Of a DNA stretch of 62,401 bases, positions 45,119 to 62,401 are shown piece by piece. The notes under the pieces were generated by a model, which was not told where the DNA came from, did not search any database, and saw only the letters and a program-made list of their open reading frames with translations. Position numbers and translations under genes: made by a program. This stretch comes from a bacterium (GTDB lineage Bacteria; Patescibacteriota; Gracilibacteria; JAUYGZ01): positions 1 to 62,401 of the forward strand of contig JAUYGZ010000026.1 in NCBI GenBank assembly GCA_030690415.1, written 5' to 3'. Position 1 is the stretch's first letter, and each line of letters starts with the position of its first letter.

Positions 45119-48100
45119 CTACTTTCTTCTTCCTTTCTTCTCCAACCTTTTTTTCTCCGCCTTTTCCCCATAATGTCGGCGTATCCTCTTATAAATCCTC
45201 CACAATACAGAGAGAATAATAATGAGAAGCACGAGCAAGAGCGGCCAGAAAAAATAGCCATAGTTTTCCGCGCGAAAAAAGGTCGCACAATCCAGAGGAC
45301 AAGTCACGGCATCTTCGTCAAAGCCACAAAATCCATTCCCACAAAGACACCCTGTAGTATCAGCCACCTTTCTCTCATCCAAACTCTTCCCAATGAGGAT
45401 ATAGCGATCATCACGAGTACAGGAAGCTTCCGCAAGGGAAAAGTACTGCTGATGACCGAGGAGAGCCACATTCTCGAGATACTGACCAATATCCTGAGAA
45501 ATCAACTGGCCTATGACCTTTCGGGTAGGAGCCTCCACGATCAGACCGACGTGATCCGCCCCCAACTCCCAAAAATTCTTGCACTGCTGGTCCAGATAGG
45601 CTCCTCCCACATGCTGCGCACTGGCGATAGAAACAATTCCATCATTCTTTCCTCCCAAATTGAGAAACATCCCCGCCCCTACACTCGTAATCCCCAGATC
45701 AACCTGAAACTCCCGATCTCCCGCAATCGAGAAATACTCTATGCCGGGAACCTGTGGAATTTGTGGACGATCCATAAGCAGCTCCTGCGTACTGGTGTCT
45801 TCCAGTCCAAAAAGGGAAATGTTTCCCGTCGAGAGCATATAATTGTAGAGCTGCAAAAGTACCCCCTTGGTCTCAACCTTATCATTTGGGGTCCCGATCA
45901 TGATGAGCTTCCTCGTTTTTTCAAGAAAGCTGAACCGGCCGGGAGTGATGGCGTTTTCTCGATAGGCATAGTCCAGCGCTTCCTGAGTGATCAACCCTCC
46001 CAAACTATGCGCCACCAAATAAAGCACATCGTACTCATCCGCATGAGCCTCAAGCTGATAGGCAAATTCTTTGGCAGACGTGGCAATTTTATCATTAAAA
46101 GGATATCCAAAAGTCCAGACCTGCCAAGGCTGTCTCGTGTCTCGAATATCGCTAATAAAGGGATCCCAAATACCGGGATCGCTATTCAAACCATGGATCA
46201 ACACCACCGCCGCCCTGTCTCCCGACAGAGGATCATAGACCTTCTCAAAATAACTCTTCCCGGGATCTCTCTGAACAATCCCCATGGTAGCCAAAACAAT
46301 CCGACCCTGATCGTCCACGAACCGTTGATAATCAATTTCTTGCTCCAGCACAAGCCGATCTGTCCGGTTTACGGATTCACCTAATAAGAACCAGACCTTC
46401 GAAGAAGGATCTAAAATAAACATCTGCACTCCGGCATCGGGAATATGAACATCTTTTGAATAAGGAAGACTAAGGAGGACCCGCTCTTCCTGATTCTCCA
46501 GAAGTGGACCGGAACGGGTCACCACGATGGGAGCTGAAAGAACTTTGAGGGAAGGATGGATGTATCCATCAAACCCCCCTGGAAAGAAGTCCACGGAATA
46601 ACTCCTGCCGGAAGGCTCCCCTAGAGGAGCAACATGATACCGGTCGGAAAAGCTTCGGAATGAATTTTCCAGATCACTCCGGTCTACAGGTGTTACTTCA
46701 ACACGCTGAATCTCAGCCAGTTTCACTCCTTGACGAATAATTTCATCTTGCTGACAAGTGATCTGATCTGTCACAGTCACCAACACATCTTCACACTCCC
46801 CTCCAACACACTTCACCGCTCTCACATCGGAAAAATTATCCGGAAGACTGAGGGTCGTTTGATAAGGGCCTGGATCACAGTCGAGCTGAAAAGGCCCATC
46901 AATGATTTCAAAATCAGGTGGAGGCTCATAAGGGAAAGCCAGTCGCTGAATATCAGGAGTCTGAGCTAGCCGATCATGACAAGCCAGGGTCTCAACATCC
47001 ACAGAAACGAGATGAACCCCTCCAGCCTCCTCAGGAATCTGAACCAAACCGGTATTATTCAAAAGATCATTCATCTGAACCACAAACCACCCCACGGTAT
47101 CGGATTCCGCGAGCCCCGTGTACACCGCATCGATAGTCCGACTCACGACATCTTGCTGTAGCGCCTGTTCTGTCTCAGTGGGAGGGATACACACATCCAC
47201 CAGAACCTGACAGGATGTATCACACACCAAAGAACCGGGAGGCTCACATTGTTCACCCGATTCAACGATACCGTTTCCGCAGGAGGGAGTGGTTGGGGGA
47301 AGAGATGGTGGCGGTTCGGCAGATGGAGGAGGAGTCTGCTCCCCCTGGAGCCCCTGTTCATTAAAGCTATACTCATAGGTATTCATTACATTACCCACCA
47401 AATCACTGGCATCCACTGAAACATGCACCGGAACACCGTCAAGAAAATCCTCGGGAGGATCGATCATAATGATATAATAAAACGCATCTCCCATGACCGT
47501 TACTCCGGGATCGCCAATGTGGTACTCCACGCCATTGATCGTAATCACGACCGTCGATAAATCCACCCCTGCCATATTATCCCGAAGATGGATCACGACA
47601 TTACTGTCTAATGGGACATTTCTCGTTCCGGGATTAGGGATGACGATATAAGCGTATGCAGGAACCGTGTCATCGACACAGGACCCCAGCTCAAAGGTAT
47701 AGCTGCCATTCGTCACGCCAGTGAGTAAATCATCACTCTCCAAACTCGCGACGTTACTGTCCCTGGAAGCCCCTGGTGTAAAATCAAAACGCAGAGTCGT
47801 ACTCGTCACTCCCGGCTTGCTCCGAAAAATAATGGACCCGAAGACAGTAGAAGCGGCTCCAGTACTATTGTACGGATGGAGGACACTAAAACCAGTCATT
47901 AATATCCGACCGGCGGAAGTATCAATCTGATTTCCAGGATACATCTCATAAAGAGATCCTTCCTGAACCTCCTGAATCTCAATCTCATTGGGGTTGAAAA
48001 GAACCACCGCGTCCGCGGCATTACTCATCTGTCCCTGAGTATCAATCAGCATATTCACCACCGAATCACACTCCTGTCGAAAAGTCTGAGCAGCGGGAGA

Positions 48101-48211
48101 AAGAGAAAATATAGCCGCCTGTGCCGAGGCAACAGAAAAAACCCCAGTAATAAAAGTCACAGCCCCCACGAACGCCGCAAGAAGGAATTGTTTTCTCAGA
48201 AATGAAAGCAT
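45119..48211 (-). CDS. Membrane-anchored surface protein: cohesin-like domain plus lipase-like hydrolase
   Basis: 1030 residues from ATG 48211; earlier in-frame codons translate a simple repeat. Order: signal peptide (to about residue 32), a cohesin-like beta-sandwich (about 33-178, 'IFSLSPAAQTF...AADAVVLFNPNEIEI...GRILMTG...GSIIF...SNVAS'), an Ig-like domain (about 182-290), a Pro-rich linker, a Cys-rich CGNGIVESGEQCE motif, a long middle, then an alpha/beta hydrolase (about 665-930). The hydrolase has oxyanion region VVLIHGLNSD, nucleophile elbow VAHSLGGL (Ser near 736), and candidate Asp in KNDGIVS and His in GADHVGLI. After CGNGFCGFDEDAVTCPLDC comes a membrane helix and a basic tail, so the body faces outside. 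The natural partner is the dockerin protein encoded just upstream. Confidence 0.75.
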   Translation of the reverse strand: MLSFLRKQFLLAAFVGAVTFITGVFSVASAQAAIFSLSPAAQTFRQECDSVVNMLIDTQGQMSNAADAVVLFNPNEIEIQEVQEGSLYEMYPGNQIDTSAGRILMTGFSVLHPYNSTGAASTVFGSIIFRSKPGVTSTTLRFDFTPGASRDSNVASLESDDLLTGVTNGSYTFELGSCVDDTVPAYAYIVIPNPGTRNVPLDSNVVIHLRDNMAGVDLSTVVITINGVEYHIGDPGVTVMGDAFYYIIMIDPPEDFLDGVPVHVSVDASDLVGNVMNTYEYSFNEQGLQGEQTPPPSAEPPPSLPPTTPSCGNGIVESGEQCEPPGSLVCDTSCQVLVDVCIPPTETEQALQQDVVSRTIDAVYTGLAESDTVGWFVVQMNDLLNNTGLVQIPEEAGGVHLVSVDVETLACHDRLAQTPDIQRLAFPYEPPPDFEIIDGPFQLDCDPGPYQTTLSLPDNFSDVRAVKCVGGECEDVLVTVTDQITCQQDEIIRQGVKLAEIQRVEVTPVDRSDLENSFRSFSDRYHVAPLGEPSGRSYSVDFFPGGFDGYIHPSLKVLSAPIVVTRSGPLLENQEERVLLSLPYSKDVHIPDAGVQMFILDPSSKVWFLLGESVNRTDRLVLEQEIDYQRFVDDQGRIVLATMGIVQRDPGKSYFEKVYDPLSGDRAAVVLIHGLNSDPGIWDPFISDIRDTRQPWQVWTFGYPFNDKIATSAKEFAYQLEAHADEYDVLYLVAHSLGGLITQEALDYAYRENAITPGRFSFLEKTRKLIMIGTPNDKVETKGVLLQLYNYMLSTGNISLFGLEDTSTQELLMDRPQIPQVPGIEYFSIAGDREFQVDLGITSVGAGMFLNLGGKNDGIVSIASAQHVGGAYLDQQCKNFWELGADHVGLIVEAPTRKVIGQLISQDIGQYLENVALLGHQQYFSLAEASCTRDDRYILIGKSLDERKVADTTGCLCGNGFCGFDEDAVTCPLDCATFFRAENYGYFFWPLLLVLLIIILSVLWRIYKRIRRHYGEKAEKKRLEKKGRRK

Positions 48212-48212
48212 G

Positions 48213-48255
48213 AAAGGAAGGTAGGAAAGTAGGAAGGTAGGAAGGTAGGAAGGTA
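48213..48255. repeat. CTACCTTC simple repeat before the cohesin/hydrolase gene
   Basis: On the coding (minus) strand about five CCTACCTT/CCTACTTT units lead directly to the ATG at 48211. This is the same leader type seen in the ribosomal operon. Confidence 0.85.
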
Positions 48256-48308
48256 GGGGTTCCCATTTCCCCACCACTATACACCAGCAAAGCACAAGAA
48301 AAAAACAC

Positions 48309-50249
48309 CTAAATCACCTCCCCACGCTGATAAATATTCGCCACGGCAATACTGAGATCCAGTCCATTTACCAGCCCATCATTATTCAAATCAGCGTCAA
48401 TAAGGGCCGTGTAAAGAGCCAAACACACCGCTGAGAAATCAAGACCGTTCACGTAGTCATCCTTGGAGCGGTGCACATCACCCGCCAGGAGAAAGAAAGC
48501 CCCCCCCAGGGTAAAATCCAAGAGCAGATCTCCCCCGGGAGAAAGCGTCAAACCGTTAAGCCGTTTTGTGAGATGGGATAGCCCTTTGAGCAAAGCCAGA
48601 TATCCCCCTGGCCCCAAAGGTCGATTATCAAGAAATACCTTCCCATCGGAAGCGGTCTGAATGTTCTCCTGAAGAACCGATGTCGTAGCTCCTTCTTCGT
48701 AGACATTCAACACACTCGCTAAACCCCAATTACCGGTCCTGGGAAACCGTTTTTCCGGATAGGCCGTGAGAGACAGGTCAGTCACATTGTGAACAGTGAA
48801 TTGAATATCAGGAGCAGTCAGCAGAGCTTCCGTATACCCCACCACGTCGGTTACCCGGGAATACCCCAGATATACTCCATCAGCCAAAAACTGCGTCAGC
48901 GTAAGCTGCGTGCTCTGACGGGTAGACGGGATAAGCTGGAAATTCCCTCCATCCTTGCCCAAATACACCTCGACTGAATTGGCCCCGCCATTAGGAAGAG
49001 AATCAAAAACAATTGTCAGCGGAACATCAACCCCCTGGATAACATCCGGTGTAAACTGCAGCAAATGACTTTCGGGAAGTCTTTCGACCTGACACAACCG
49101 ACTACAACCATCGAAACTCACCTGATTACCATCATCACAGGTCTCAGGATCCTCAACCTGCCCATCTCCACACTCCACCGCCGCCGGAACCGTCCGAATA
49201 ATCTCAAAGAGCAAAGATTCTGAATCAGGACTAATCACTGCGCCATCCTGGGAAGTACTCAAGGCCACAAGACTGTAAACCCCATCCCCCATCGAAGTAG
49301 AATCAAATGAAAGCGACCAGGCTCCCAGATCATCCGCCTGAACAAGAAAGGCAATGGATGTCGGCCCCTCTACAATCACCGTCACGAAACTGCGCTGGTA
49401 CGAATAACCTGAAGCGGTGACCTGTTCTCCCTGGGAATAGGTTTGTCGTGGCATAAAAGCGGTAGGAGGAAGATTAATGTTCGCGATCTGGGCGCTGAAA
49501 TCAGGAATGATCGTGTAATCAAACTCGAAGGGAATCGAATACCGTCCCTCCGGATCCTGTCCGAGAAAACGGAAAGTCCGGTCCCCCTGCTCCAATCCAG
49601 AATAGGTCTTCGCGAAGACCCCATCCTGACCAGGGGTAATAACCCCCATAGAAACGCCATCCAAAGAAAAATACACGGAAGCATTTGGACCCGGATACGC
49701 GAGACCTATGACCGTAATCGTGGCTGGCGGTGGCGGCTCCTCAGGAGGAGTCGGTGGTGACGGAGGCGGAGGCTCTACAGTAGGAGGTGGAGGATTCCCG
49801 CGGGGGCGGCCATCGCCGGCACCTCCACCGAGCACCACCGGCCCAACAACATAGTCATAATCATTCCCATCAAGAACCTTCACCCGTGCGATATAAGTCT
49901 CCGGCGCCAATCCAAGATAGGTCGCCAAAAAATCACCGGGGGCATGGCTTTGAAGACCGAAATAATTCAATCCACCGTCCGAAGAAAGCTCGACGTCAAT
50001 CTGAGTAATTGCCAGAGGAATATACCCGGGAGATACAAAGTCCCAGTGCCAATGAACCTCTAAAGTGGTGTCCCCTACCGCGACTAAGGAAAGCTGGGGA
50101 GGCGTGGTCATGACGCGAATCGAAATCCCCACGTCAGCTCCCTTAGCCAAGGGAAACAAAGACGCGAAAAACAGCATGACAATCAGCATCGACGCCATCA
50201 ACCTCACAAAACGCCACTCCATCATTCTGTATCGACCAGTAAATGCCAT
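48309..50249 (-). CDS. Secreted dockerin-bearing protein
   Basis: 646 residues (ATG 50225 or 50222 are alternative starts). The signal peptide contains LMASMLIVMLFFASLFPLAKG. It is followed by an Fn3-like domain (TTPPQLSLVAVGDTTLEVHW), a Pro-rich linker, Ig-like domains, and a CGDGQVEDPETCDDGN Cys-rich (DUF4215-type) motif near the middle. The C-terminal ~60 residues are a dockerin: repeat 2 DLNNDGLVNGLDLS is a canonical Ca-binding loop (D1,N3,D5,N9,D12), while repeat 1 DVHRSKDDYVNGLDFS is expanded by two residues. No membrane anchor or enzyme domain is seen. It probably binds the cohesin-like domain of the next gene. Confidence 0.8.
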   Translation of the reverse strand: MAFTGRYRMMEWRFVRLMASMLIVMLFFASLFPLAKGADVGISIRVMTTPPQLSLVAVGDTTLEVHWHWDFVSPGYIPLAITQIDVELSSDGGLNYFGLQSHAPGDFLATYLGLAPETYIARVKVLDGNDYDYVVGPVVLGGGAGDGRPRGNPPPPTVEPPPPSPPTPPEEPPPPATITVIGLAYPGPNASVYFSLDGVSMGVITPGQDGVFAKTYSGLEQGDRTFRFLGQDPEGRYSIPFEFDYTIIPDFSAQIANINLPPTAFMPRQTYSQGEQVTASGYSYQRSFVTVIVEGPTSIAFLVQADDLGAWSLSFDSTSMGDGVYSLVALSTSQDGAVISPDSESLLFEIIRTVPAAVECGDGQVEDPETCDDGNQVSFDGCSRLCQVERLPESHLLQFTPDVIQGVDVPLTIVFDSLPNGGANSVEVYLGKDGGNFQLIPSTRQSTQLTLTQFLADGVYLGYSRVTDVVGYTEALLTAPDIQFTVHNVTDLSLTAYPEKRFPRTGNWGLASVLNVYEEGATTSVLQENIQTASDGKVFLDNRPLGPGGYLALLKGLSHLTKRLNGLTLSPGGDLLLDFTLGGAFFLLAGDVHRSKDDYVNGLDFSAVCLALYTALIDADLNNDGLVNGLDLSIAVANIYQRGEVI

Positions 50250-51673: not shown

Positions 51674-51696
51674 GCCCATGTGAAAACGAACACTCC

Positions 51697-51724
51697 GTAG
51701 AGACACATTGCAATGCGTCTCTAC
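51697..51724. repeat. GTAGAGAC palindrome copy after the ATPase
   Basis: Arms GTAGAGAC and GTCTCTAC with core ACATTGCAATGC, followed by CCCCACAAACCCTACAAACC. It lies between the ATPase gene and the BRO-like gene. Confidence 0.85.
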
Positions 51725-51795
51725 CCCACAAACCCTACAAACCCTAACGTGAAGGGTCAGCTACAGAAGGCTTACTCCAAGCGTTGTCCTTAACT

Positions 51796-52284
51796 TCACG
51801 AGGAGATGAAGTCCAAAATTAACTTTGCCTTTTTCCATTCTCGAAACAACAGCCTGAGTTGTTCCAATCCTTTTTGCTCATATAGAGCCTTCATTCTTTC
51901 CTGAGCTAATTCAGGATTTTCTATTTCTTCCATTCGTTCATAGCCAACTTTGGCCAGCCATCTCTTAAATGGTTCGGCTTTGGGTGATGGAATTGATTGG
52001 ATAATCCGAAAAATACCCTCTGTACTTGCACAATCAGTTTCCCGCATTTTCCCATCGGAAGCTTCCAATTTCAACCGGTGACAAAATGTCACCACTTCAC
52101 TCCCTTCTTCCCGAAGCCTTTGCGAAAGCTTATTCCAATATTTTCTAGCAGCTTGAGAGTCAGGACTATCAGTCAAAGCTCCGCAAACATCCACCACAGA
52201 ATAAAACCATTCATCGTGGTGCCACGTTCGGCGTATCTGTTGTGATTGGAATAATACCAACCTGTTATTCTGTGCATCTTTCAT
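51796..52284 (-). CDS. BRO-N domain protein, C-terminus possibly truncated
   Basis: 162 residues from ATG 52284. The BRO-N block LVLFQSQQIRRTWHHDEWFYSVVDVCGALTDS is followed by ARKYWNKLSQRLREEG and TEGIFRIIQSIPSPKAEPFKRWLAKVGYERMEE, which is typical. Related proteins usually continue for ~100 more residues after 'ALYEQKG'; here the ending is LRLLFREWKKAKLILDFISS. It may be a 3'-truncated relic. BRO-N proteins are phage antirepressor-like and DNA-binding. A longer in-frame start is rejected. Confidence 0.8.
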   Translation of the reverse strand: MKDAQNNRLVLFQSQQIRRTWHHDEWFYSVVDVCGALTDSPDSQAARKYWNKLSQRLREEGSEVVTFCHRLKLEASDGKMRETDCASTEGIFRIIQSIPSPKAEPFKRWLAKVGYERMEEIENPELAQERMKALYEQKGLEQLRLLFREWKKAKLILDFISS

Positions 52285-52336
52285 AATGTAAAAAGTTAAA
52301 AACAAATAAGAACAAGGAAACGAGGAAATGACCCGT

Positions 52337-52389
52337 CCTCCGTAGCAGTTGAGAAGCTGCTGAAGCAGCAAACACAGCTACTGCGGAGG
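52337..52389. repeat. CCTCCGTAGC / GCTACTGCGGAGG hairpin repeat
   Basis: Outer arms CCTCCGTAGC (52337-52346) and GCTACTGCGGAGG (52377-52389) enclose a second hairpin, GCTGC-TGAA-GCAGC (52356-52369). It lies upstream of the BRO-like gene, with copies of the GAGGAAATGA-type repeat on each side. Confidence 0.75.
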
Positions 52390-52436
52390 GTGGAAGAAAC
52401 GAGGATGTTCTATAAATTCTCGAGAGAATACATAGA

Positions 52437-52847
52437 TTAATTAGAGCGACTGTTTCTGCGAATTGTTGAGGAGAGTGCCTTAAGCTGTTTCATAATCAGA
52501 ACAGCAGCTCCTAAAAATATCAGCTGCTTCTCTCTATCCATATAGCCATCATCACAAGCTGCATCAATTCCCGCAACAACTTCATCCAGAGAGCCAACGG
52601 CAATATTCAAAAAATGGCTATTTGATTTTCCGGTATATCGATCTGAACCTTCAGCAATATTGAGAACAATTGAATCCAAAGCTCTCCACAACTGAGCCCT
52701 CAGACAATATCGCTCATCTTGGGGAAAATGTTCCTGAGTATATTTTTTTAAATTTTTCCGAAATTCCCTTGCGTCATGATAGACCGGAAATTTTCGAAAC
52801 CGAAAAATCTCATTAATCTCTTTTTCATCATCCATGTCCAAATTCAT
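52437..52847 (-). CDS. Four-helix bundle protein (S23/IVP-like)
   Basis: 136 residues. FPVYHDAREFRKNLKKYTQEHFPQDERYCLRAQLWRALDSIVLNIAEG followed by SNSHFLNIAVGSLDEVVAGIDAA matches the family of four-helix bundle proteins first found in 23S rRNA intervening sequences. The role is unknown; a scaffold or oligomeric ring is known for homologues. No rRNA gene is nearby. Confidence 0.88.
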   Translation of the reverse strand: MNLDMDDEKEINEIFRFRKFPVYHDAREFRKNLKKYTQEHFPQDERYCLRAQLWRALDSIVLNIAEGSDRYTGKSNSHFLNIAVGSLDEVVAGIDAACDDGYMDREKQLIFLGAAVLIMKQLKALSSTIRRNSRSN

Positions 52848-52920: not shown

Positions 52921-53056
52921 TTCCTCATTTCCTCATTTCCTCGTTTCCTCCCTTCCTCATTTCTTCATTTCTTCATTTCCTCGTTTCTTCATTTCCTCCC
53001 TTCCCCATTTCCTCCTTTCCTCATTTCCTCATTTCTTCATTTCCTCGTTTCTTCAT
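52921..53056. repeat. ~135-bp TTTCCTCA/TTTCTTCA octamer array
   Basis: About 17 imperfect octamers of TTTCCTCA, TTTCTTCA, TTTCCTCG and CTTCCTCA type, plus-strand orientation. The array provides the TGA stop codon of the gene at 53053-54063. Sequence reads as low-complexity codons in any frame; no gene is called across it. It is the largest of several related simple repeats in the window. Confidence 0.9.
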
Positions 53057-54063
53057 TTCCTCTTCTTCTTCCCCTTCCTCGCCAACACCCACACCAACAC
53101 GATCATCAAAACAAGAAACCCTCCGATGTAAGGAGCAAGCTCTTTCACAATAGCAATGATAGGAGGAGTCACGACGATTTCTTTTTCTATAATCTTTTCA
53201 ATAGCACCCGGCTCGTCTCCCGTGTAGGGAAGATAATATTGAAAATCAATAATCTCACTCACCAGTTGCTCTCCCTTTTCTCCGGTTTTAGGGGAATCAT
53301 AAAGCTTCAGGATAGCCCGATATTCTTTCTCTCCATAATTATCACCCAGATCGCCCAATGGGATTTGTACGTTTGAGACAACATTGGGGAAAGAAACAAA
53401 GGTGTCCCGAAGAAGCTTGATGGGAGACGAAGGATCGTTGATATCAAAAATAGAAATTTCTGCCAGAACATCAAAAAAAGTATTTCCCGTATTGTTATAC
53501 TTCGTGAAAAAATTGACGGTATTTCGGGCCCTTTCCTGCGACTCCGATCGAAACTCCTCCAAATCTCCACTTCGGATTTCTTCTCCTCCCAGGACTTTGA
53601 TGAAAACGACCGAATTAATCGCTCCTGAAACTCCAACCATGGCACTCATTTCTGCTTCAACAGGGGCAAAAGTGACCATACCAAAGTGACTCCCATATTG
53701 GGCATTTTCAGGTACATTAATCCGCACGGCAACTTTTGAGCTTTCTCCCTGGACTGCGGTGAATCGATCTTTCACTTGAATCCACTGATCAAGAGATTGC
53801 GAAGGATCGGCAAGCTGATCTGGATTGATCGGCTGGGTAGAGCCGGTCGGGGTGTAAACAAAATCGTGGACATTAACCGAAAAATCCCCTGTTTCTGACC
53901 CATTCGTAAAGCTGATAACATATTCCCGACTTTCACCACGCTCTAATTCAAAGGTCTGGCGGGCAGGAGATATTGTCATGCTAAAAGCACTCGCCTGCGA
54001 ACACAGACTAACAGAGAAAGCAAAAACAAAGAGAGACAAAAAAAGGTTTCGAACAATATTCAT
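53053..54063 (-). CDS. DUF916-like membrane-anchored surface protein (set A, second partner)
   Basis: 336 residues. Signal peptide LFLSLFVFAFSVSLCSQASA, then a beta-sandwich starting FSMTISPARQTFELERGESREYVISFTNG with NVPENAQYGSHFGMVTFAPV, similar to the DUF916 peptidoglycan-binding/WxL-interacting domain. A second beta domain follows. The end has a membrane helix (IGGFLVLMIVLVWVLA) and basic tail RKGKKKRK. The topology is outside body with a C-terminal anchor. It is 16 bp after its paralogue. The stop codon is supplied by the octamer array. Confidence 0.75.
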   Translation of the reverse strand: MNIVRNLFLSLFVFAFSVSLCSQASAFSMTISPARQTFELERGESREYVISFTNGSETGDFSVNVHDFVYTPTGSTQPINPDQLADPSQSLDQWIQVKDRFTAVQGESSKVAVRINVPENAQYGSHFGMVTFAPVEAEMSAMVGVSGAINSVVFIKVLGGEEIRSGDLEEFRSESQERARNTVNFFTKYNNTGNTFFDVLAEISIFDINDPSSPIKLLRDTFVSFPNVVSNVQIPLGDLGDNYGEKEYRAILKLYDSPKTGEKGEQLVSEIIDFQYYLPYTGDEPGAIEKIIEKEIVVTPPIIAIVKELAPYIGGFLVLMIVLVWVLARKGKKKRK

Positions 54064-54079
54064 AAGTAATAAAAAAAAA

Positions 54080-55006
54080 TTATTTCTTCCTCCCTAGGAA
54101 AAAAGAAATCAGCACTAAAGTCAAACCAATGAACAAGGCAAAGCCCTGAAATATGGGACTATATAAAAACTGAAAACGTTTTCGCTCACGATAAGGCTGA
54201 AGAGGTGAAAGAACCTTTTCCTTTGAGATCAAACGGGTTTCTTCGAGAAAAACAACAGGAGCACGATCTAAAAGATCTCCCTGACGAGTCCTGATCAGCA
54301 ACTCGGCAGAAGAAAAATCCTCTGAACGCAGAGCCTTTCCGCTTCTATTCACCAGATTAAGATGTTTTGGAAATTCGGGAAAAACGGGGGAAGCTTCACC
54401 GTCGAAGTTCTCTATTTCATTTCCTTCTTCGTCATACACGACCAGCTCCGGAATAACGACAAAGAAACGGGTGGCTTCATTTTGAAAATTAAACTGAACG
54501 GCCTGAATATCAGTAATGCTTCCCTCATCCATCCTGAGACTCGTCTCCAGGAGTTTCCCTTTGGGGGCTCCTTTTTCCCCATAGCTCAAATAGACGAGAG
54601 CCCCCAGCTCATAGCTCACGGTAGCGCCCTCATCCCCTCTCTTCCGGACACTGACCAGATAATAATAATCACCTTCTTCAAGATTGTCGGGGACGGAGAC
54701 CGTGACAGGCAGATACTGTTCCTGTTCTGGCTCAAAAAAAAGTTCCTGGGTTTCAAAAGAAAACACATTCAACAAATCCTCCTTCTCGAGACGTCGCCCT
54801 TCTTCATCGTATAAAAAGGGAACGGAAATAAGCTCATAATATCCACCGCTCTGGCTGCGAAAAGAGAGATCAAAAGAAAACAGTTCCCCTGCATTCACGT
54901 CAAAAACCAATGACGAAGGGGAAAGCATATCACCTGAAGCGTTCGCCTCAGATAGGTTCAAGAGAACCAAGAGAAAGACAAAAATAACTCTGACAACGTA
55001 GTTCAT
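54080..55006 (-). CDS. DUF916-like membrane-anchored surface protein (set A, first partner)
   Basis: 308 residues. Signal peptide VIFVFLLVLLNLSEANA. The N-terminal beta domain (LSPSSLVFDVNAGELFSFDLSF ... VSVPDNLEEGDYYYLVSV) has the same plan as the next gene, followed by a second beta domain. There is a C-terminal membrane helix (GFALFIGLTLVLISFFLG) and RKK tail. It lies downstream of the probable surface-protein gene at 55111, separated by a terminator, so read-through expression would be lower. Confidence 0.72.
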   Translation of the reverse strand: MNYVVRVIFVFLLVLLNLSEANASGDMLSPSSLVFDVNAGELFSFDLSFRSQSGGYYELISVPFLYDEEGRRLEKEDLLNVFSFETQELFFEPEQEQYLPVTVSVPDNLEEGDYYYLVSVRKRGDEGATVSYELGALVYLSYGEKGAPKGKLLETSLRMDEGSITDIQAVQFNFQNEATRFFVVIPELVVYDEEGNEIENFDGEASPVFPEFPKHLNLVNRSGKALRSEDFSSAELLIRTRQGDLLDRAPVVFLEETRLISKEKVLSPLQPYRERKRFQFLYSPIFQGFALFIGLTLVLISFFLGRKK

Positions 55007-55046
55007 GGGAAAAAAATATTCTCTCCCAGAATACCAAAACTCTTCA

Positions 55047-55084
55047 CAAAAAAAAGCCGACCCGATAAATCGGGACGGCTTTTA
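55047..55084 (-). terminator. Strong terminator after the surface-protein gene
   Basis: On the minus strand AAAAGCCG-TCCCG-ATTTAT-CGGGT-CGGCTTTTTTTT: a stem of about 10 bp with one mismatch and a T8 tail. The A-rich other side makes it nearly two-way. Confidence 0.9.
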
Positions 55085-55110
55085 GGGAGAACATCAACAC
55101 GAACCAGCTT

Positions 55111-55836
55111 TTAGCTGCCAGATCCATCAGCAGTAGCGGTATAAATAACCGTACAGGCATACAGACCAGCAGGCTGTGAGCCAGCAACACCAATAAAGTA
55201 ATCCAAATTGGCATTAATTTTTACCGTTTGTTCGACAGCGGTATCAAAAACAACTTGTGGTGAACCATCTGGAGGAACAGCGCCCCAGAGGGCCGTAGCA
55301 CCTTCAGTGTCAGTAGTTCCCCACTGAGTATCTTCATCAGCTCCACGAAGAGCAACATTAGTAGTAGCATCAGTCAAGCGAAGTGCCAGACCAGTCTCGG
55401 TAGCCGCAACAAGACCAGTCCCATCATTAGCCGCCTGCGCGTCAGCAACATCAGAAACAGAATCAGTAATAAAGTCAGTCGCATTATCGAGACAATCTGC
55501 AGCTGCTGCCGTATTGGTGAAATGAGCCGTTACGTTCGCGCCATTGGTGATATTGGTTCGAAGACCAAGCAAAGTATCGGCAGGACTAAACGAAGACGCA
55601 TAGCCTGAAGTATTATTCAGACTTACCTTGGAAGCCTGATCATTTTTTCCAAAAGGACAATCTCCACCTGCAGTAGCAGTACAGTCTGCAGAGGCATTTT
55701 CAAGCGATAACTCAAGAAACGTTGGGACTTCGACCTCGGTAGCAGGTGATTGCGTTGTCTGTGCAAAAGCTGGAACAATGGTCGCCAATGCGACAAGAGA
55801 TATCCCCGCTCCAAGAGCGGCAAATTTCTTAACCAT
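55111..55836 (-). CDS. Probable major secreted surface protein (WxL-like end)
   Basis: 241 residues. Signal peptide FAALGAGISLVALATIVPAFA, then an acidic Ala/Thr/Asn-rich beta protein with very few Lys. Four Cys occur, two at ADCTATAGGDC. It ends AGSQPAGLYACTVIYTATA, resembling the end of the giant protein at 58852 (SYPIPAGTYSGVIEINATV) and the last strands of WxL-type domains; no WxL tripeptide is seen. No anchor is present, so it is presumably held by its DUF916-like neighbours. A near-consensus promoter, long leader and immediate terminator suggest high, separate expression. Confidence 0.72.
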   Translation of the reverse strand: MVKKFAALGAGISLVALATIVPAFAQTTQSPATEVEVPTFLELSLENASADCTATAGGDCPFGKNDQASKVSLNNTSGYASSFSPADTLLGLRTNITNGANVTAHFTNTAAAADCLDNATDFITDSVSDVADAQAANDGTGLVAATETGLALRLTDATTNVALRGADEDTQWGTTDTEGATALWGAVPPDGSPQVVFDTAVEQTVKINANLDYFIGVAGSQPAGLYACTVIYTATADGSGS

Positions 55837-56080
55837 AACAAATAAATTAAAAAAATAGACAAAATTTGAACGTTAAGGCCAGTCCAGGCCGCTCTTTTTT
55901 AAGCTCGAGCAGAGCATGTATTTTATGTAAATAGTAAGGGAAGAATCCACCGATACCTCGACCAGAGCATCCGGCCTTCAAGAAACGAAGGGAAGGAATT
56001 TTCCTTTCTTACAAGATAAGTAAACGTCGGTCTTTCAAAGGACACTCAGAAGGCAGAGATATTTCTCCAGCCTTCATACC

Positions 56081-56109
56081 ATTATACTCTCTGTGAAAAG
56101 CAAAGTCAA
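56081..56109 (-). promoter_or_regulatory. Strong promoter of the surface-protein gene
   Basis: On the minus strand TTGACT (56109-56104), exactly 17 bp, TATAAT (56086-56081): the best sigma-70 consensus in the window. The expected start near 56075 gives an unusually long untranslated leader of about 240 nt. Confidence 0.75.
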
Positions 56110-56135
56110 GACAAGGATTTACAGCTCCTCAAGCT

Positions 56136-56190
56136 GTCATTGCGAGGACCGCAGGGGGGAGATTGCTTCGTCGTACCTCCTCGCAATGAC
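56136..56190. repeat. GTCATTGCGAGG...CCTCGCAATGAC repeat
   Basis: Inverted arms GTCATTGCGAGG and CCTCGCAATGAC separated by about 31 bp containing GGGAGATTGCTTCGTCG. This motif is a widespread bacterial interspersed repeat, common to unrelated phyla. Confidence 0.85.
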
Positions 56191-56419
56191 AATGTGTGAG
56201 AAGTTAAAAGTTCTTAGTGCCTTTTTAGCAAAAAATACTGGACCATAAAAGTCTTTTCCCTTGCAAGGGCGAATGATTAAGGGGTTGATAACATTTTTTG
56301 TTCAAGAAAGATTCAGATGTCAAAAAGGCCGCTTCTCTTGGATAATCATAGTTTCTTCCTTTACAGAGCAGAGAAGAACTTATTAAATAAAGGTCGTTAT
56401 CATCTCGTTATTCTTTCTT

Positions 56420-56674
56420 ATGAAAAAACTCATCATTGTCATTATCATAGGTCTTATCGCGATCGCCTTAATCATGAACTACCGAAAGGCACCGGAAAAA
56501 ATGGAACCGGCTACTGATGCGGAAAACATTGGAGTCGAAGTGAAAGTCGGCGAACCGGGAATGGAAAATGCGACAAGTAAAGACTCAGAAAATATCGGCA
56601 TCAACATTATGGTTGGTGAAGAAGGGCGTGAATCAGACTCGACAAACGTCGGGGTCGGAGTAGAGGTCAAATAA
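56420..56674 (+). CDS. Small membrane-anchored protein with triple ENIGV repeat
   Basis: 84 residues. An N-terminal hydrophobic anchor (KKLIIVIIIGLIAIALIM) is followed by three related segments: ENIGVEVKVGEPG, ENIGINIMVGEEG and TNVGVGVEVK. The rest is acidic. No family recognised. A strong terminator follows 20 bp after the stop. Confidence 0.7.
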   Translation: MKKLIIVIIIGLIAIALIMNYRKAPEKMEPATDAENIGVEVKVGEPGMENATSKDSENIGINIMVGEEGRESDSTNVGVGVEVK

Positions 56675-56694
56675 ACACTTCAAAATAACGTTTA

Positions 56695-56724
56695 AAACCC
56701 CCCGATGATTATCGGGGGTTTTTT
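56695..56724 (+). terminator. Terminator after the ENIGV protein gene
   Basis: AAAACCCCCCGAT-GATT-ATCGGGGGTTTTTT, an 8-bp GC-rich core plus A/T pairs and a T-run. Effective in both directions by sequence. Confidence 0.9.
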
Positions 56725-56773
56725 GTACGCCCATGCCCCACCCCTGTAAATCACCCCCATAAAACACACACCC

Positions 56774-56844
56774 GTACAGACGTCTTGTTATTTTGTAGAG
56801 ACGCCCCGGCGGGGCGTCTCTACAAAATAACAAATTGTCTCTAC
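56774..56844. repeat. Nested GTAGAGAC palindrome (one copy inside another)
   Basis: The outer copy has arms GTACAGAC (56774) and GTCTCTAC (to 56844) with core TTGTTATTTT/AAAATAACAA. Exactly in its centre sits a complete second copy (56795-56823), arms GTAGAGAC/GTCTCTAC, core GCCCCGGCGGGGC. The rest of the gene-free stretch 56725-57056 is C-rich and contains CCCTACAAACCCCACAAACC repeats. Confidence 0.85.
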
Positions 56845-57056
56845 CCCGCACAGCCCTACCAACCCTACAAACCCCACAAACCCCACGCAACCCCACACCA
56901 TCCTGGCCTACGGGGTTGTGCCGGATTGTCTGCCCATTTTGGAACCCAGCCAAATTGAACATTGAATATTAAATTTGGCCCTGTGAGATAACACACCGAA
57001 ACTTCTGGCATATACCGCTGGAATAAGCTAACTTAGAGCCAACCAGCTAAACGCAT

Positions 57057-57278
57057 ATGATAACTTTCGCACCAGCAAAAACAACACCTGAAATGCAGAA
57101 AAACTGCGTGGGATATTCAGTGATTTCGCTCCCCAATGGAAACATAGTCGGCATAGGGGAAAACAGTATGATTGCGATGAATAACGCCAAAGCTGCATGC
57201 CCCGACCTTGATGAGGAAAAAGTCTTAATATCGCACATTCATGGAAGAATCGTCATCGGTCCTTTTACCATACGTTGA
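57057..57278 (+). CDS. Small DUF5678-like protein
   Basis: 73 residues. NCVGYSVISLPNGNIVGIGENSMIAMNNAKAACPDLDEEKVLISHI has the plan of short DUF5678-type proteins ('G.wva...g.ivasG.s..eA...Ak'). The match is by eye only. It overlaps the next gene by 38 bp in another frame. Such a pair, a small protein plus a retropepsin-like protease, suggests an operon whose second member is now broken. Confidence 0.55.
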   Translation: MITFAPAKTTPEMQKNCVGYSVISLPNGNIVGIGENSMIAMNNAKAACPDLDEEKVLISHIHGRIVIGPFTIR

Positions 57279-57411
57279 AGGAAGACCACAAATAACAGCA
57301 CAACTAAAATCAGACGGGGGAAAATCCAGATTTTTTGAATTTCTCGTCGACAGTGGGGCCGATATGAGCACGGTTTCCAAATACGATGCTGCGACGATGA
57401 ACACCCCGTAG
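57241..57411 (+). pseudogene. Retropepsin-like aspartic protease truncated by a palindromic repeat
   Basis: 56 codons from ATG 57241. FFEFLVDSGADMSTVSKYDA contains the D-S/T-G-A-D active-site motif of retropepsin-like proteases. After MNTP the frame runs into the GTAGAGAC palindrome, whose TAG (57409-57411) is the stop. Family members are ~100-130 residues with a second conserved region (hydrophobic-G), which is missing. Nothing resembling the lost 3' part is found before the next gene. Confidence 0.65.
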
Positions 57412-57436
57412 AGACGCCCCGGCGGGGCGTCTCTAC
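57408..57436. repeat. GTAGAGAC palindrome copy that ends the protease gene
   Basis: Arms GTAGAGAC and GTCTCTAC, core GCCCCGGCGGGGC, flanked by CCCC and GGGG. It is followed by a half copy (ACGTCTCTAC). The core is the same as in the inner nested copy at 56795-56823. Confidence 0.85.
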
Positions 57437-57470
57437 GGGGGCAAAACGTCTCTACAAACGCAACCCTACG

Positions 57471-58517
57471 TCACCCCTTCTTCCTCTTCCTCCAACACAA
57501 GCCCGCCATCACAGCGATCAGGAGAATAGCTGAGCCAAAAAAGACGATTTTGATCAGAGTGACCCAATCCGCTCGAAGAAGCGTAAAGGCCTGTTGAACA
57601 TTTCCAATAGGTAGTTCTTCAGCAAAATACGTTTCCTTCATCTGCTTATCCCAGAGCTCATACTTCAGGGTCAAAGGAACCTGGGCATTGAGATACTGAT
57701 TGGGGAAACGATGAGATACCGTAGCCTGCTCTCCCGGAAAGATCCGCTTGGACTTTCCACCGCTCTTATAATAGATCTCACCAGACTCATCGGTGATCGT
57801 AATAAGAGGTTGAACAGAAACATAGCGGAGAGCGTTACTGATAAAATCAACAGACAGCTCAGTCTCCTCGCCCAAATCTTTCAAAATCATCTTCGAAATC
57901 TGATACTCAGCGACTTCTGGGGCAACACCATGCAGCCCTTCCCCCCCATCTTCCACCGAAGCCAACAAAAGCGTCCCTACACTCTGTCGAACAAACACCG
58001 CGCCGGCAGAAAATTGGCTCCCTGGAGAAGAAAAATAGAAATTCAAGCTGGCGTAATAGTCAGCCACCTCGACCCCTTCCGGAACCACAATCGTACAGGG
58101 AAAGTCACGAGACTCTCCCGCGGGGAGCGTGAAGGTAAGATCCCCTGCCGGTCGAACCCAGGAAGCCAGAGATCGCTGGACATTTCCCTTCGATTCCGGA
58201 GGCAAAAAGGTCACATTGTGATCCCGGGAGATCTGAACATCGAAGGCTTCGAAAGTGATCTGATAATCACCAGAGCTCAGATTACTGATGTGGATACTCC
58301 GTTCGTAGCTCTTCCCGGACTGGAGCTGATACTCCATGATCAACGGATTCAGGCTAATAGTCCCTTGACCCGTTTGAGCCATGGCCCCATGCATTGAACC
58401 CCATCCCAGCAGCATCAGCGCAGTGCTCAGCAGAACGAGTCGTCCGTAGCTCCAGGTGGAGCGAAGGATGAGGCTGAGTTTTCGTGCGGGACGAGATAGG
58501 GAGGTAAAGAGGGTCAT
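57471..58517 (-). CDS. DUF916-like membrane-anchored surface protein (set B)
   Basis: 348 residues from ATG 58517; upstream in-frame codons translate repeats. The signal region LLSTALMLLGWGSMHGAMAQ precedes a DUF916-like beta domain beginning LNPLIMEYQLQSGKSYERSIHISNLSSGDYQITFEA with VPEGVEVADYYASLNFYF. A second beta domain follows, then a membrane helix (IVFFGSAILLIAVMAGLCW) and RKRKKG tail. Same architecture as the two set A proteins. It follows the giant surface protein at 58852, its likely partner. Confidence 0.75.
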   Translation of the reverse strand: MTLFTSLSRPARKLSLILRSTWSYGRLVLLSTALMLLGWGSMHGAMAQTGQGTISLNPLIMEYQLQSGKSYERSIHISNLSSGDYQITFEAFDVQISRDHNVTFLPPESKGNVQRSLASWVRPAGDLTFTLPAGESRDFPCTIVVPEGVEVADYYASLNFYFSSPGSQFSAGAVFVRQSVGTLLLASVEDGGEGLHGVAPEVAEYQISKMILKDLGEETELSVDFISNALRYVSVQPLITITDESGEIYYKSGGKSKRIFPGEQATVSHRFPNQYLNAQVPLTLKYELWDKQMKETYFAEELPIGNVQQAFTLLRADWVTLIKIVFFGSAILLIAVMAGLCWRKRKKG

Positions 58518-58518
58518 G

Positions 58519-58706
58519 ATGTGTTGTAGGGAAGTAGGAAGGTAGGTTTTTAGGTGGTAGGTGGTAGGTGGTAGGTTGTAGGTTGTAGGAGGTGAAGAAG
58601 AGAGAGAGTGCAGAATTTTCCGAAGCCGGAGTTGGCGGAGGGCGAGTCCGCCGCGGCGGACGAGGGAGGAGAGTCCCCTCTCCTTGAGGAGAGGGTCAGG
58701 GTGAGG
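58519..58706. repeat. Repeat cluster in the leader of the set B partner gene
   Basis: From the start codon outward: CTACTTCCC/CTACCTTC and CTACCACC simple repeats (58519-58593), the TCCGCCGCGGCGGA palindrome (58647-58660), and a CCCTCTCC-TTGA-GGAGAGGG hairpin followed by TCAGGGTGAGG (58676-58706), a repeat type common in many bacteria. No gene is seen in 58518-58851. Confidence 0.8.
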
Positions 58707-58851
58707 CGGAAGGAGGCGAAGGAAGCCCCCAGCATTCCCCACAGCATCTGGCCCCCCTCGGGGCCCTCCACGCAATCTCACGATCTGGGAAGTAAAGTTT
58801 TTCATTTTATTATTTTTTCTTTTTTAATTTTACATTTTGCATTTTAACTCC

Positions 58852-61800
58852 CTACGGAATCACCGTCGCGTTAATCTCAATTACGCCCGAATAGGTCCCC
58901 GCAGGGATGGGATAACTTCCCTCAAGCTCGAGCTGCAACTGCAAAACAGAATTATACGGCGATCCGGCACTTGTCTTCAGAGTCGCGTCATTGATCATCG
59001 TGTCATAGGCATCCGGGAATCCACCGAATTTTGCGTTTGGAGACGTGTCATCGCTTCCCCACCAGCTGCTGTTATAGGCATTCGCGTCTCCGGTTGACTT
59101 CAGACGGAACCCTAATGCCGATGAAGGACTAGACCAAATCGCTGAATTCGGCGTTCCGCTGATCCAATCCAGAAGATCGGGGAAATCCTCGCCGGAAGGA
59201 TCTCTCTGCATCGTGGTATCCGGATCAGTATTCTGCTTCTTGATCTGAACGGTGTACCCTGTCTGAGAATTCGTGCTTACCCCAAGAGTATTTTCTTCAG
59301 ATGCCAAGGTATCCATCGGCACCGTTCCAAAGAGGAAGTCACTCATGGCTGATAAAGTCAGGAACAGATACGTGATGTCCTGAGCTCCGTCCGTGCCATC
59401 GGTCGTGATACTGTTCGTGGTGTAGGTTTGAACATTGGTCGCTCCATCTGTGACACGAATTCGAACCTGATTTACTCCATCGGCCAAAGTTGCGAGATAA
59501 CTCCAGGTTGAGAAATTCGTTCCCGTATTCGTCGCGCTCGCCCAAATGCCACCATTATTGATACTCACCTCCACGAGCGTCACGCCGGAATCACCCGTGC
59601 CAACATCCGTCGCCGTACCGATCAGCGTAACCGTATCGGTATCCTGACTGAAGTCCGCTCCTGGGTCATCTCCTCCAACTCCATCATGATCATAAGTGAT
59701 CGTCCCTGTGGGTGGCGTATTGTCGAAGATCCAGTGAGGACTGACATCACCATCATCATTATTTCCACTATTCGTCGAGGTTCCAAGCGCATAAATATCA
59801 TTGCTGTCAGCATTTCCATAGGAAACATCCACATTGCTCACCGTCTGATCCCCTGCCGTCACATCGAAAGTCCAGGTCGAGAGATCAGAAGAAGTCAGTG
59901 TGATCTGAGTCCCTCCTGCCTGACCATCGATATCCAACGTATTGGCAATGATCTGAGTCACCCCACCCTGGAAATCAAGCACCTTGCTCGGTGTCACGGA
60001 AGTGAAGTCGTAGAAAGTATTCGCACCCGTAATACGGGAAGTCTGACCATTATCATCGAAGGTAATCTCACCGTTATTGTGCGTAAACCCGGTTGAGCCG
60101 GGAACATTATCCCAACCTCCACTCACCGTGAAAGCGGCCGTATTGGAAGCCGAAATATTCCCATCAGTAGCAATCGCCACATCGTTGGCAACAGAGACTA
60201 CCGGATCACTGGTATTGAGATCCAGACCCCCGTCAGTAACGGTCAAAGAACCTTCGATGGTGACTGTTCCCCGAGGTCTGACCGCATTGGACCCGCCGGC
60301 TCCCGTATTTTCGATTTCGAGATTGTTAAGCGTGATACTGGTCGGATCACCGAAGAAATTATTCGGATGCAAATCCTGGTTCGAAGTGCCGATAAACCTG
60401 ATGGTTCCTCCATTATGGGTAAAGGTACTGCCGAAATCATTGTAACCGTTGAGATTTCCGGTGATATTAAGCGTCGTGGAAGGAGCGGTAAATGAGCCAT
60501 TATCAATGGTAAAATCTCCATTCAAATCCGTGCCATTATTTCCAAAACTCAGATTACCGGTGCTCACGCTTCCAGTACCACCAGAGAAATTTCCGCCATC
60601 CCAGACGGAGAGAGTCCCTGCCGACACCGTGAAACTTCCAGGTGAGAAAGTCCCCCCTCCGACCACCAGATCATTTTGAATCTCAAGATTATTATTCACC
60701 AGAGTAAGCGTATCGAATCCCCTGACTGACAAATTGTAAAAAGCATTCCCGGCACCTGTTCCACCAGAATCGAGCGTGATAGCGCTGAAAAACCAGTGAA
60801 AATCCACCGTGCTCGTCCCATAGTTAAAAGTGCCGCTGTTAGCCCAATCCCCCTCCACCGTGATCGTATTCCCATCCGCCGTCATCGTCCCGTCAATCCG
60901 CAGATCCCCTGTCAGGACATTCCCCGAGCTCGCCGAATCAGGCCGATACGCGTCTCCGGTGGCAATCAGCAGAGCATTATTCGTATGCCCTCCCTCGCTA
61001 TCCGTATCCAGATCATTCGTGGTGTTCGCGACATCGAAGAAAATATCTTCGTCAGCCGAGACGGAACTGTCATAGCTGGAAATATTCGCGTTCGTAATCG
61101 TCTGATTATCATCGCTACCCAGCGTCAACCGCTCCTCGATCAGCTGAACATTCGTCACGGTAGTCCCCACCCCATCCCAGACCGTCACCGCCGCCGCTTC
61201 CTGGGCTTCAGCCACGCCATTCACAAACACCGTCAGGACATCCCCCGGATTCACTGATGCTGTCGTCGTCAGGGTCCATTGGCCGGAAGCTGGCGTACCC
61301 GTCGTCCCAGCACTCGCGTCAAGCGTTCCATTGATCGCCACCTTCACCGACTCGCTATCCGCGCAATTGGTACTGTTGTCAGCCTGCTTGCAGGTCCCGG
61401 AAATCGTGAGGGTCGTAGCCAGGGGGCCTGCTCCTGAATTTCTCAAGCCTTCAATACGGTACAAATCAGTCGTATCATTAGCCAGTGCTCCTCCATCATC
61501 CGCAGCGTTCACCAGCTTCACCCGAACTCCGTTCGTCAGAGAGCTTCCCACCGTCTTAAAAGTCAGCCCATCAACCTGAGTGCTCGTGAAGGTCACTCCA
61601 CCCGAACAACTTGAGGTAATTCCAGCCAACGTGGTCGCGTTGGGACAAATTCGCACGCCATTGCTACCATTCGAATTCGGAATATATAAGGCATGGAATG
61701 CCGCCAGATTCGTCGAAGAAAAATTACTCATCACCGTCTTCGTCGCGTCAGCGTCATAGGTCTCTCCCGTCAGATCCACATCGGTATTCGTATACTGCAG

Positions 61801-62401
61801 ATCTGAATGCAGCCCTATCACCAATCGATTCGGCGTCACCGTTGTGTCCGTAAAACGCTTGTAAAAATCATAAGTCCCCGTATCCGTCGGCTGCGCGGCG
61901 ATCGTCAGCCCTGCAGGGATATTCACATACGAATGAGGTCGATTCATGCAGTGAACCGTATTAACTCCATCTTCACCGGCTGCGAGGGTACGGGTCACAG
62001 ACCCTCCTCCACTCGTATCGGCAACTCCCGTGATGATCACGGCATGCCCACCCACGGGGCAAACACCGGGAGAAGCGACGGTCAGAACCGCGGCGTTAAG
62101 AACGGAAAAGTTATTGAAGGTATAATTAGACGGCTGGCCGGTGATGAAGAGGGGGGTGACGGCAGTGGTCACCTGAGTCGCGTTATTGACGATCAGGCTG
62201 GCCGAAAGAGTGTCATCCGAGTCATCGAGATAAAGTGTGCCGGCTCCACCAACGGTAGCCGCTGCGGCCCCGCCAGTACCACCATTGGCGAGATAGGTAA
62301 TCGTTGAATTATCCGTACCATAATACACCGCAATTCTTCCCCCACCACCGCCGCCACCATCCCAACTAGATGCATTAAACCCCGCTCCGCCAACAGCAGA
62401 A
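58852..62401 (-). CDS. Giant surface adhesin-like protein (5' end outside window)
   Basis: At least 1183 codons, open to the window edge; the start lies beyond 62401. The first visible residues are Gly-rich (WDGGGGGGGRIAVYYG), typical of large bacterial surface proteins. The middle has repeated beta units such as WANSGTFNYGTSTVDF, FTHNGGTIRFIG and FTHNNGEITFDDNG, suggesting a beta-helix. Next is an Ig-like domain (TGTITYDHDGVGG ... VNQVRIRVTDGATNV). The C-terminal ~150 residues, ending IPAGTYSGVIEINATVIP, resemble the end of the 55111 protein. No C-terminal anchor is present, so attachment probably depends on the adjacent DUF916-like protein. Confidence 0.8.
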   Translation of the reverse strand, partial: SAVGGAGFNASSWDGGGGGGGRIAVYYGTDNSTITYLANGGTGGAAAATVGGAGTLYLDDSDDTLSASLIVNNATQVTTAVTPLFITGQPSNYTFNNFSVLNAAVLTVASPGVCPVGGHAVIITGVADTSGGGSVTRTLAAGEDGVNTVHCMNRPHSYVNIPAGLTIAAQPTDTGTYDFYKRFTDTTVTPNRLVIGLHSDLQYTNTDVDLTGETYDADATKTVMSNFSSTNLAAFHALYIPNSNGSNGVRICPNATTLAGITSSCSGGVTFTSTQVDGLTFKTVGSSLTNGVRVKLVNAADDGGALANDTTDLYRIEGLRNSGAGPLATTLTISGTCKQADNSTNCADSESVKVAINGTLDASAGTTGTPASGQWTLTTTASVNPGDVLTVFVNGVAEAQEAAAVTVWDGVGTTVTNVQLIEERLTLGSDDNQTITNANISSYDSSVSADEDIFFDVANTTNDLDTDSEGGHTNNALLIATGDAYRPDSASSGNVLTGDLRIDGTMTADGNTITVEGDWANSGTFNYGTSTVDFHWFFSAITLDSGGTGAGNAFYNLSVRGFDTLTLVNNNLEIQNDLVVGGGTFSPGSFTVSAGTLSVWDGGNFSGGTGSVSTGNLSFGNNGTDLNGDFTIDNGSFTAPSTTLNITGNLNGYNDFGSTFTHNGGTIRFIGTSNQDLHPNNFFGDPTSITLNNLEIENTGAGGSNAVRPRGTVTIEGSLTVTDGGLDLNTSDPVVSVANDVAIATDGNISASNTAAFTVSGGWDNVPGSTGFTHNNGEITFDDNGQTSRITGANTFYDFTSVTPSKVLDFQGGVTQIIANTLDIDGQAGGTQITLTSSDLSTWTFDVTAGDQTVSNVDVSYGNADSNDIYALGTSTNSGNNDDGDVSPHWIFDNTPPTGTITYDHDGVGGDDPGADFSQDTDTVTLIGTATDVGTGDSGVTLVEVSINNGGIWASATNTGTNFSTWSYLATLADGVNQVRIRVTDGATNVQTYTTNSITTDGTDGAQDITYLFLTLSAMSDFLFGTVPMDTLASEENTLGVSTNSQTGYTVQIKKQNTDPDTTMQRDPSGEDFPDLLDWISGTPNSAIWSSPSSALGFRLKSTGDANAYNSSWWGSDDTSPNAKFGGFPDAYDTMINDATLKTSAGSPYNSVLQLQLELEGSYPIPAGTYSGVIEINATVIP

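Follow-up and report, generated by a model that had tools for sequence, protein, structure and literature searches.

A putative non-covalent surface display system of WxLIP-like anchors and pilin-like partners in a gracilibacterium, a candidate diverged form of the Pam pilus

The locus described here probably specifies a system of two parts for non-covalent display on the cell surface, which would be a diverged version of the CPR "Pam pilus". One part consists of three membrane anchors (P1, P2 and P3) that resemble the WxL-interacting proteins (WxLIPs) of Gram-positive bacteria, the other of two secreted proteins, the small P4 and a giant, which share a pilin-like C-terminal domain. The architecture of the locus, the homology of both halves to families outside it, the phylum-wide pairing of the two halves and the adjacency of anchor genes to PamR were established by sequence comparison, and the mode of action proposed below is conditional. 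Patescibacteria are ultrasmall and mostly episymbiotic, and the results bear on how such cells fix very large proteins on their surface. They also link the experimentally studied WxLIP family of Gram-positive bacteria to NCBI's models of the Pam pilus.

The window, i.e., the stretch of DNA analyzed, is the whole contig C8 of 62,401 bases from a genome of 1.45 Mb with a completeness of 98.8%. All five ORFs were recovered on the minus strand at the positions of the initial annotation (Table 1). The order of a secreted protein followed by its anchor occurs twice, once as giant and P3 and once as P4, P2 and P1. A search for related loci yielded a single other genome, Candidatus Gracilibacteria bin_em_oilr2.006 (JARGOK010000001.1; G001). 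Here, the gene order giant, P3, P4, P2, P1 is kept; the P1 orthologue is 39% identical to P1, and orthologues were found for P2, P3 and P4 as well.

Table 1. Features of the locus and its conserved neighbours (positions in the window)
Feature	Position	Strand	Remarks
P1, WxLIP-like membrane anchor	53053..54063	-	16 nt downstream of P2
P2, WxLIP-like membrane anchor	54080..55006	-	104 nt downstream of P4
P4, small secreted anchorless protein	55111..55836	-	Orthologue in G001; hhalign match to domains from outside the class
P3, WxLIP-like (DUF916-like) membrane anchor	57471..58805	-	Directly downstream of the giant; orthologue in G001
Giant secreted protein, C-terminal 1182 aa	58852..62401	-	Frame open to the contig end
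Pilin-like C-terminal domain of the giant (wider CPR_Pam_pilin_C family)	58855..59406	-	hhalign, AlphaFold2, PDB neighbours
Secreted DUF4215 protein with dockerin-like C-terminal repeat	48309..50249	-	Conserved neighbour; association less certain
Large secreted protein with C-terminal membrane helix and alpha/beta-hydrolase domain	45119..48295	-	Conserved neighbour; association less certain

According to the initial annotation, the three anchors share a signal peptide, two beta domains, a C-terminal membrane helix and a basic tail. Hydropathy analysis revealed a hydrophobic stretch at the N terminus of P1 and P2; these two and P3 have a hydrophobic helix at the C terminus together with a basic end. 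Each of the three has two beta-rich regions, and profile comparisons identified them as paralogues (P1-P2 92.9%, P1-P3 96.9%, P2-P3 94.9%). The common build was thus retained apart from the N terminus of P3, which is ambiguous by hydropathy and obscured by an uncertain start. The P3 ORF opens with about 95 residues (58517-58805) that precede a signal-like stretch, and the real start is uncertain because these residues are repeat-like (HPDPLLKERG, PTTYNLPPTTYHL). Translation may start either at the ATG at 58517 or at an upstream start that carries the repeat-like insertion. The P3 orthologue of G001 begins with MKHF and the corresponding stretch in the window with MKNF, as if the repeat had been inserted in frame.

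Direct scans of the five window proteins with Pfam and NCBIfam gave no match above cut-off. P1 matched PF06030 (WxLIP_PGBD) weakly (E 0.17), but over nearly the whole model (23-119 of 121). In contrast to the window anchors, anchor relatives in 13 of 145 genomes of the class passed the curated cut-off of this family. Among 24 aligned class members, 17 matched PF06030 and 2 matched PF11797 (DUF3324). The window anchors and their G001 orthologues could be aligned with the members over cut-off (hhalign 99.7%, E 6e-27; reversed control 1.0%), and P1, P2 and P3 were also recognized by DUF916-like proteins of other classes (hhalign 99.7, 97.5 and 99.4%, respectively; reversed controls below 1%). In the PDB, the anchor-family profile retrieved EfmWxLIP1 (9i25, 9i1y) with an E of 7e-8 across both domains. 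A second alignment, composed almost entirely of anchors from outside the class and overlapping little in members with the first, found the same protein, again across both domains (E 9.7e-7), and no other significant PDB match. Comparison with annotated DUF916-DUF3324 proteins of Enterococcus and Lactobacillus gave 97.7 and 97.8%, the latter with the outside-class anchors, and the alignment of the family profile with these proteins covered both domains. The DUF916-like nature that had been proposed for the anchors is thus supported, and P1-P3 were filed as putative diverged WxLIP relatives with a second domain that is weakly recognized by Pfam.

WxLIPs consist of DUF916 (PF06030), DUF3324 (PF11797) and a transmembrane helix (PMC10599100). 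The window anchors share with them the signal peptide, the two beta domains, the C-terminal helix and the basic end, and they are likewise encoded downstream of a small or large anchorless secreted partner. In contrast to WxLIPs, they are below the Pfam cut-off, their DUF3324 region is weakly recognizable, and their partners are not WxL proteins.

Both secreted proteins lack a C-terminal helix, in agreement with their initial description as anchorless proteins next to anchors. The mature P4 is essentially one pilin-like domain. The giant is repetitive and beta-rich and contains one Big_13-like region. It is truncated, with its 5' part lying beyond the contig, because C8 ends at base 62401. The syntenic orthologue in G001 (G001:C3:815645-855709) is one open frame of 13,354 codons, and the giant of the window probably exceeds 10,000 aa when whole. 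The G001 protein (L114, L115, L050 1-8710) is rich in G, T, S and D and its hydrophobic N-terminal stretch gives way to a strongly acidic region.

The C-terminal domain connects these two proteins with a family that is found beyond the class. Against the domains of other classes, hhalign gave 97.8% for the domain of the giant (E 7e-13, 145 columns) and 92.9% for P4 (E 4e-7, 169 columns), with reversed controls of 0.2% in both cases; the relationship between P4 and the giant is visible at the profile level only. The related "PAG-x-Y" endings that had been noticed in both proteins were confirmed, and the Tyr of this ending occupies the only column without variation in an alignment of 52 relatives. 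The pilin-like domain ends 0-4 residues from the C terminus of the protein in every listed match except one. The domain was modelled with AlphaFold2 using the 52 sequences (pLDDT 82.6, pTM 0.81), which replaced a poor model from 17 sequences (pTM 0.59). The best PDB neighbours were CfaB-type and other chaperone-usher pilins (best E 1.5e-3, probability 1.00, TM 0.45/0.54). No PDB fold matched the model at an E of 1e-3 or better, and TM reached at best 0.46 by query and 0.57 by target. The model is therefore only suggestive of a pilin-type fold for the C-terminal domain of the giant/P4 family. The predicted fold is closest, with weak similarity, to the class 5 and archaic chaperone-usher pilins (CfaB, CsuE, CooA), but neither an usher nor a separate periplasmic chaperone was seen at the window locus.

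The initial annotation had described a WxL-like surface system, and the domain was compared with the WxL family. The W-x-L motif is absent from P4 and from the last 210 residues of the giant. None of the 52 domain relatives matched PF13731 (WxL), compared to 5 of 7 genuine WxL proteins of the same class. The domain profile gave only 0.3% against the WxL proteins of Firmicutes (hhalign), whereas the positive control, the WxL proteins of the class, gave 97.5%. WxL membership of the giant and P4 was dropped because both the Pfam and the Firmicutes profile tests were negative; instead, the domain belongs with CPR_Pam_pilin_C (see below). PDB searches with the class WxL proteins and with an Enterococcus WxL protein yielded nothing useful, and no WxL chain was found there by sequence. 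Nevertheless, the locus could in principle be homologous to the Firmicutes cluster of small WxL, large WxL and WxLIP genes, with WxL domains altered beyond recognition. The plan is the same, as the WxLIP gene lies downstream of the WxL gene in Enterococcus and Lactobacillus (PMC10599100). In addition, the last 30 or so residues of the domain resemble the class WxL proteins (hhalign 83.8%), and iterative HMM searches ran from the partner domain to true WxL proteins. This link looked like drift through the C-terminal strand, and in view of the negative family tests we consider a true WxL system improbable. In summary, the pilin-like domain resembles WxL proteins in being C-terminal and anchorless, in occurring in small and large versions and in adjoining a DUF916 protein, but differs from them in the motif, the PF13731 match and the Firmicutes profile similarity, all of which it lacks.

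Genuine PF13731 WxL proteins with DUF916-like proteins were observed in four genomes of the same class (L062 in G052, L063/L064 in G073, L065 in G143 and L066 in G012). The class WxL genes mostly lie near DUF916-like genes. The class includes TGA-recoded members, and some of the WxL genes are in such genomes. No report of WxL proteins in Patescibacteria was found in the limited set of papers searched. In pCCh of Clavibacter phaseoli (L119, 3242-5056), the gene directly upstream of a DUF916 gene encodes a small protein that looks secreted and ends in VDAGDYSSTITLSLFE, and the pairing of a secreted and a DUF916 protein may thus also exist in Actinomycetota.

The relationship to the Pam pilus was analyzed with the models of NCBIfam 20.0 (NF058581 CPR_Pam_pilin_C, NF058579 PamT, NF058578 PamR). 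CPR_Pam_pilin_C was matched by 37 and PamT by 13 of the 52 domain relatives. For the domain of the giant, NF058581 was the only NCBIfam family listed, with an E of 0.041 and 14 bits compared to a cut-off of 55. P4 did not match NF058581, neither window domain matched PamT, and no match to PamR or NF058581 was present in the 98.8% complete window genome. For this reason, the window system is described as diverged and Pam-type, but is not counted as a member of the Pam family. Elsewhere, all 14 PamR places over cut-off are within 1.6 kb of a DUF916-like anchor gene and on the same strand, and in G420 the domain protein, the anchor and PamR are consecutive. A scan of 26 anchors, all but one of which came from outside the class (25), yielded no match to an NCBIfam model. 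Because of this adjacency and the missing matches, the DUF916-like protein appears, at the level of gene neighbourhoods, to be a regular part of Pam loci that NCBIfam has not modelled, and the anchors would supply the membrane half of Pam. The Pam names were not found in any relevant paper of the same limited set. Taken together, the domain of the giant and P4 lies in a wider family that takes in the NF058581 matches, and DUF916-like genes adjoin PamR in other genomes; on the other hand, the window domains are far under the NCBI cut-off, and one of them is carried by a giant whose length probably exceeds 10,000 aa.

The name given by NCBI, which designates the domain a pilin subunit, raises the possibility that the locus builds a pilus. 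P4-type proteins would polymerize by donor-strand exchange, the giant would be the terminal adhesin, and the anchors would be tethered chaperones or assembly bases, analogous to PapD and FimC, which are two-Ig-domain chaperones. The structural neighbours of the domain are donor-strand pilins, and in several genomes small pilin-like genes occur in series, for example as three consecutive genes in both G329 and G297. However, the window has one small pilin-like gene and no series, pilins do not usually reach the size of the giant (about 13,000 aa), the anchor profiles found EfmWxLIP1 and no PapD-type chaperones in the PDB, and PamR is undetected in the genome. Pilus assembly is therefore a rather unlikely explanation. 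Pam is already known through the NCBI models, and the best reading of the window locus remains a diverged Pam-type system with WxLIP-like anchors.

Next, the distribution of domain and anchor was quantified. Among 140 genomes of the class, the domain occurs in 31, and 30 of these also have the anchor, which is present in 52 of the 140 overall (p 2e-15). Without the genomes that had supplied the seeds, the anchor was found in 18 of 19 domain genomes compared to 40 of 128 (p 5e-10). The anchor is within 10 kb at 40 of 57 domain places, or 19 of 31 without seed genomes. The other 17 places in the class are not near an anchor, which is partly due to short contigs. The search was then extended to 380 genomes of the phylum, using profiles for which only the class had supplied sequences. 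The domain was detected in 119 genomes, the anchor in 181 and both in 116 (p 1e-45); in the other 65 anchor genomes, no partner domain was detected. The p-values overstate independence because the counted genomes are related by descent. Outside the class, 110 of 113 domain genomes also have the anchor. Among the 141 domain places listed there, at least 100 have a listed anchor no more than 10 kb away, and for at least 53 the distance is no more than 400 bp. Without exception, the listed pairs within 400 bp (53/53) have both genes on the same strand and the anchor downstream. The co-occurrence of the two protein classes that had been anticipated is thus very strong. The link between the two halves predicts a specific anchor-partner interface for roughly one in three of the genomes sampled from the phylum.

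These results also bear on the possibility that the anchors and the giant are beta-sandwich adhesins without any relation to each other, which do no more than share an island of surface proteins. Further surface proteins are indeed encoded close by (48309 and 45119), and docking itself is deduced from sequence. However, order, strand and spacing are conserved throughout the phylum, and the pairing statistics render independent surface proteins very improbable.

In the favoured Pam-type reading, each secreted protein would be exported by Sec. P1-P3 would be held in the membrane by their C-terminal helix and would expose a tandem pair of beta-sandwich domains that share homology with WxL-interacting proteins. 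The secreted protein would dock with its C-terminal domain on the DUF916-like product of the next gene downstream, and P1-P3 would capture the ends of P4 and the giant in this way, most likely by beta-strand complementation. The latter is suggested because pilin-type folds are typically strand-incomplete and a hairpin of WxLIP is predicted to insert into WxL. In the WxL systems, WxLIP is the partner of anchorless WxL proteins, both small and large, and the hairpin would fill a gap of the WxL protein (PMC10599100, PMC9772566). The WxL literature places the WxLIP helix in the host membrane; for the anchors, a location in the bacterium's own membrane is considered more likely, because of the basic end and the gene pairing. 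The giant would be held at the surface without a covalent link and project outwards, and it is probably an adhesin for another cell. The initial proposal of a new, non-covalent, WxL-like display system is thus kept in one respect, as non-covalent display is still the best reading, but the system is Pam-type with WxLIP-like anchors and not WxL. A more general and more tentative idea is that DUF916-like proteins might be membrane-tethered strand donors with two Ig domains, fixing a pilin domain of incomplete fold to the cell surface, and that WxL/WxLIP, Pam and chaperone-usher pili might share this one trick. If so, the same trick would keep a protein with over 10,000 residues in place in this lineage.

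The surroundings of the locus are partly conserved. In G001, P1 is followed by counterparts of the 48309 and 45119 genes, in this order. Other genes intervene in the window: an AAA-ATPase-like gene and a pair of small genes (50456-52847) lie between P1 and the dockerin-like gene, and they are absent from this position in G001. The 48309 protein matches DUF4215 (Pfam, 5.4e-7), and its G001 orthologue matches Dockerin_1 (E 0.0028). The 45119 protein matches Abhydrolase_6 (5e-4) and has a C-terminal helix by hydropathy. Its N-terminal region (47681-48133) looked like a cohesin, which was not supported by Pfam and PDB searches. The spacer between P3 and P4 contains two identical copies (56795-56823 and 57408-57436) of a REP/MITE-like palindrome of 29 nt, GTAGAGACGCCCCGGCGGGGCGTCTCTAC. 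In addition, an 84-aa ORF with an N-terminal hydrophobic helix is present on the plus strand (56420-56674), possibly encoding a small membrane protein.
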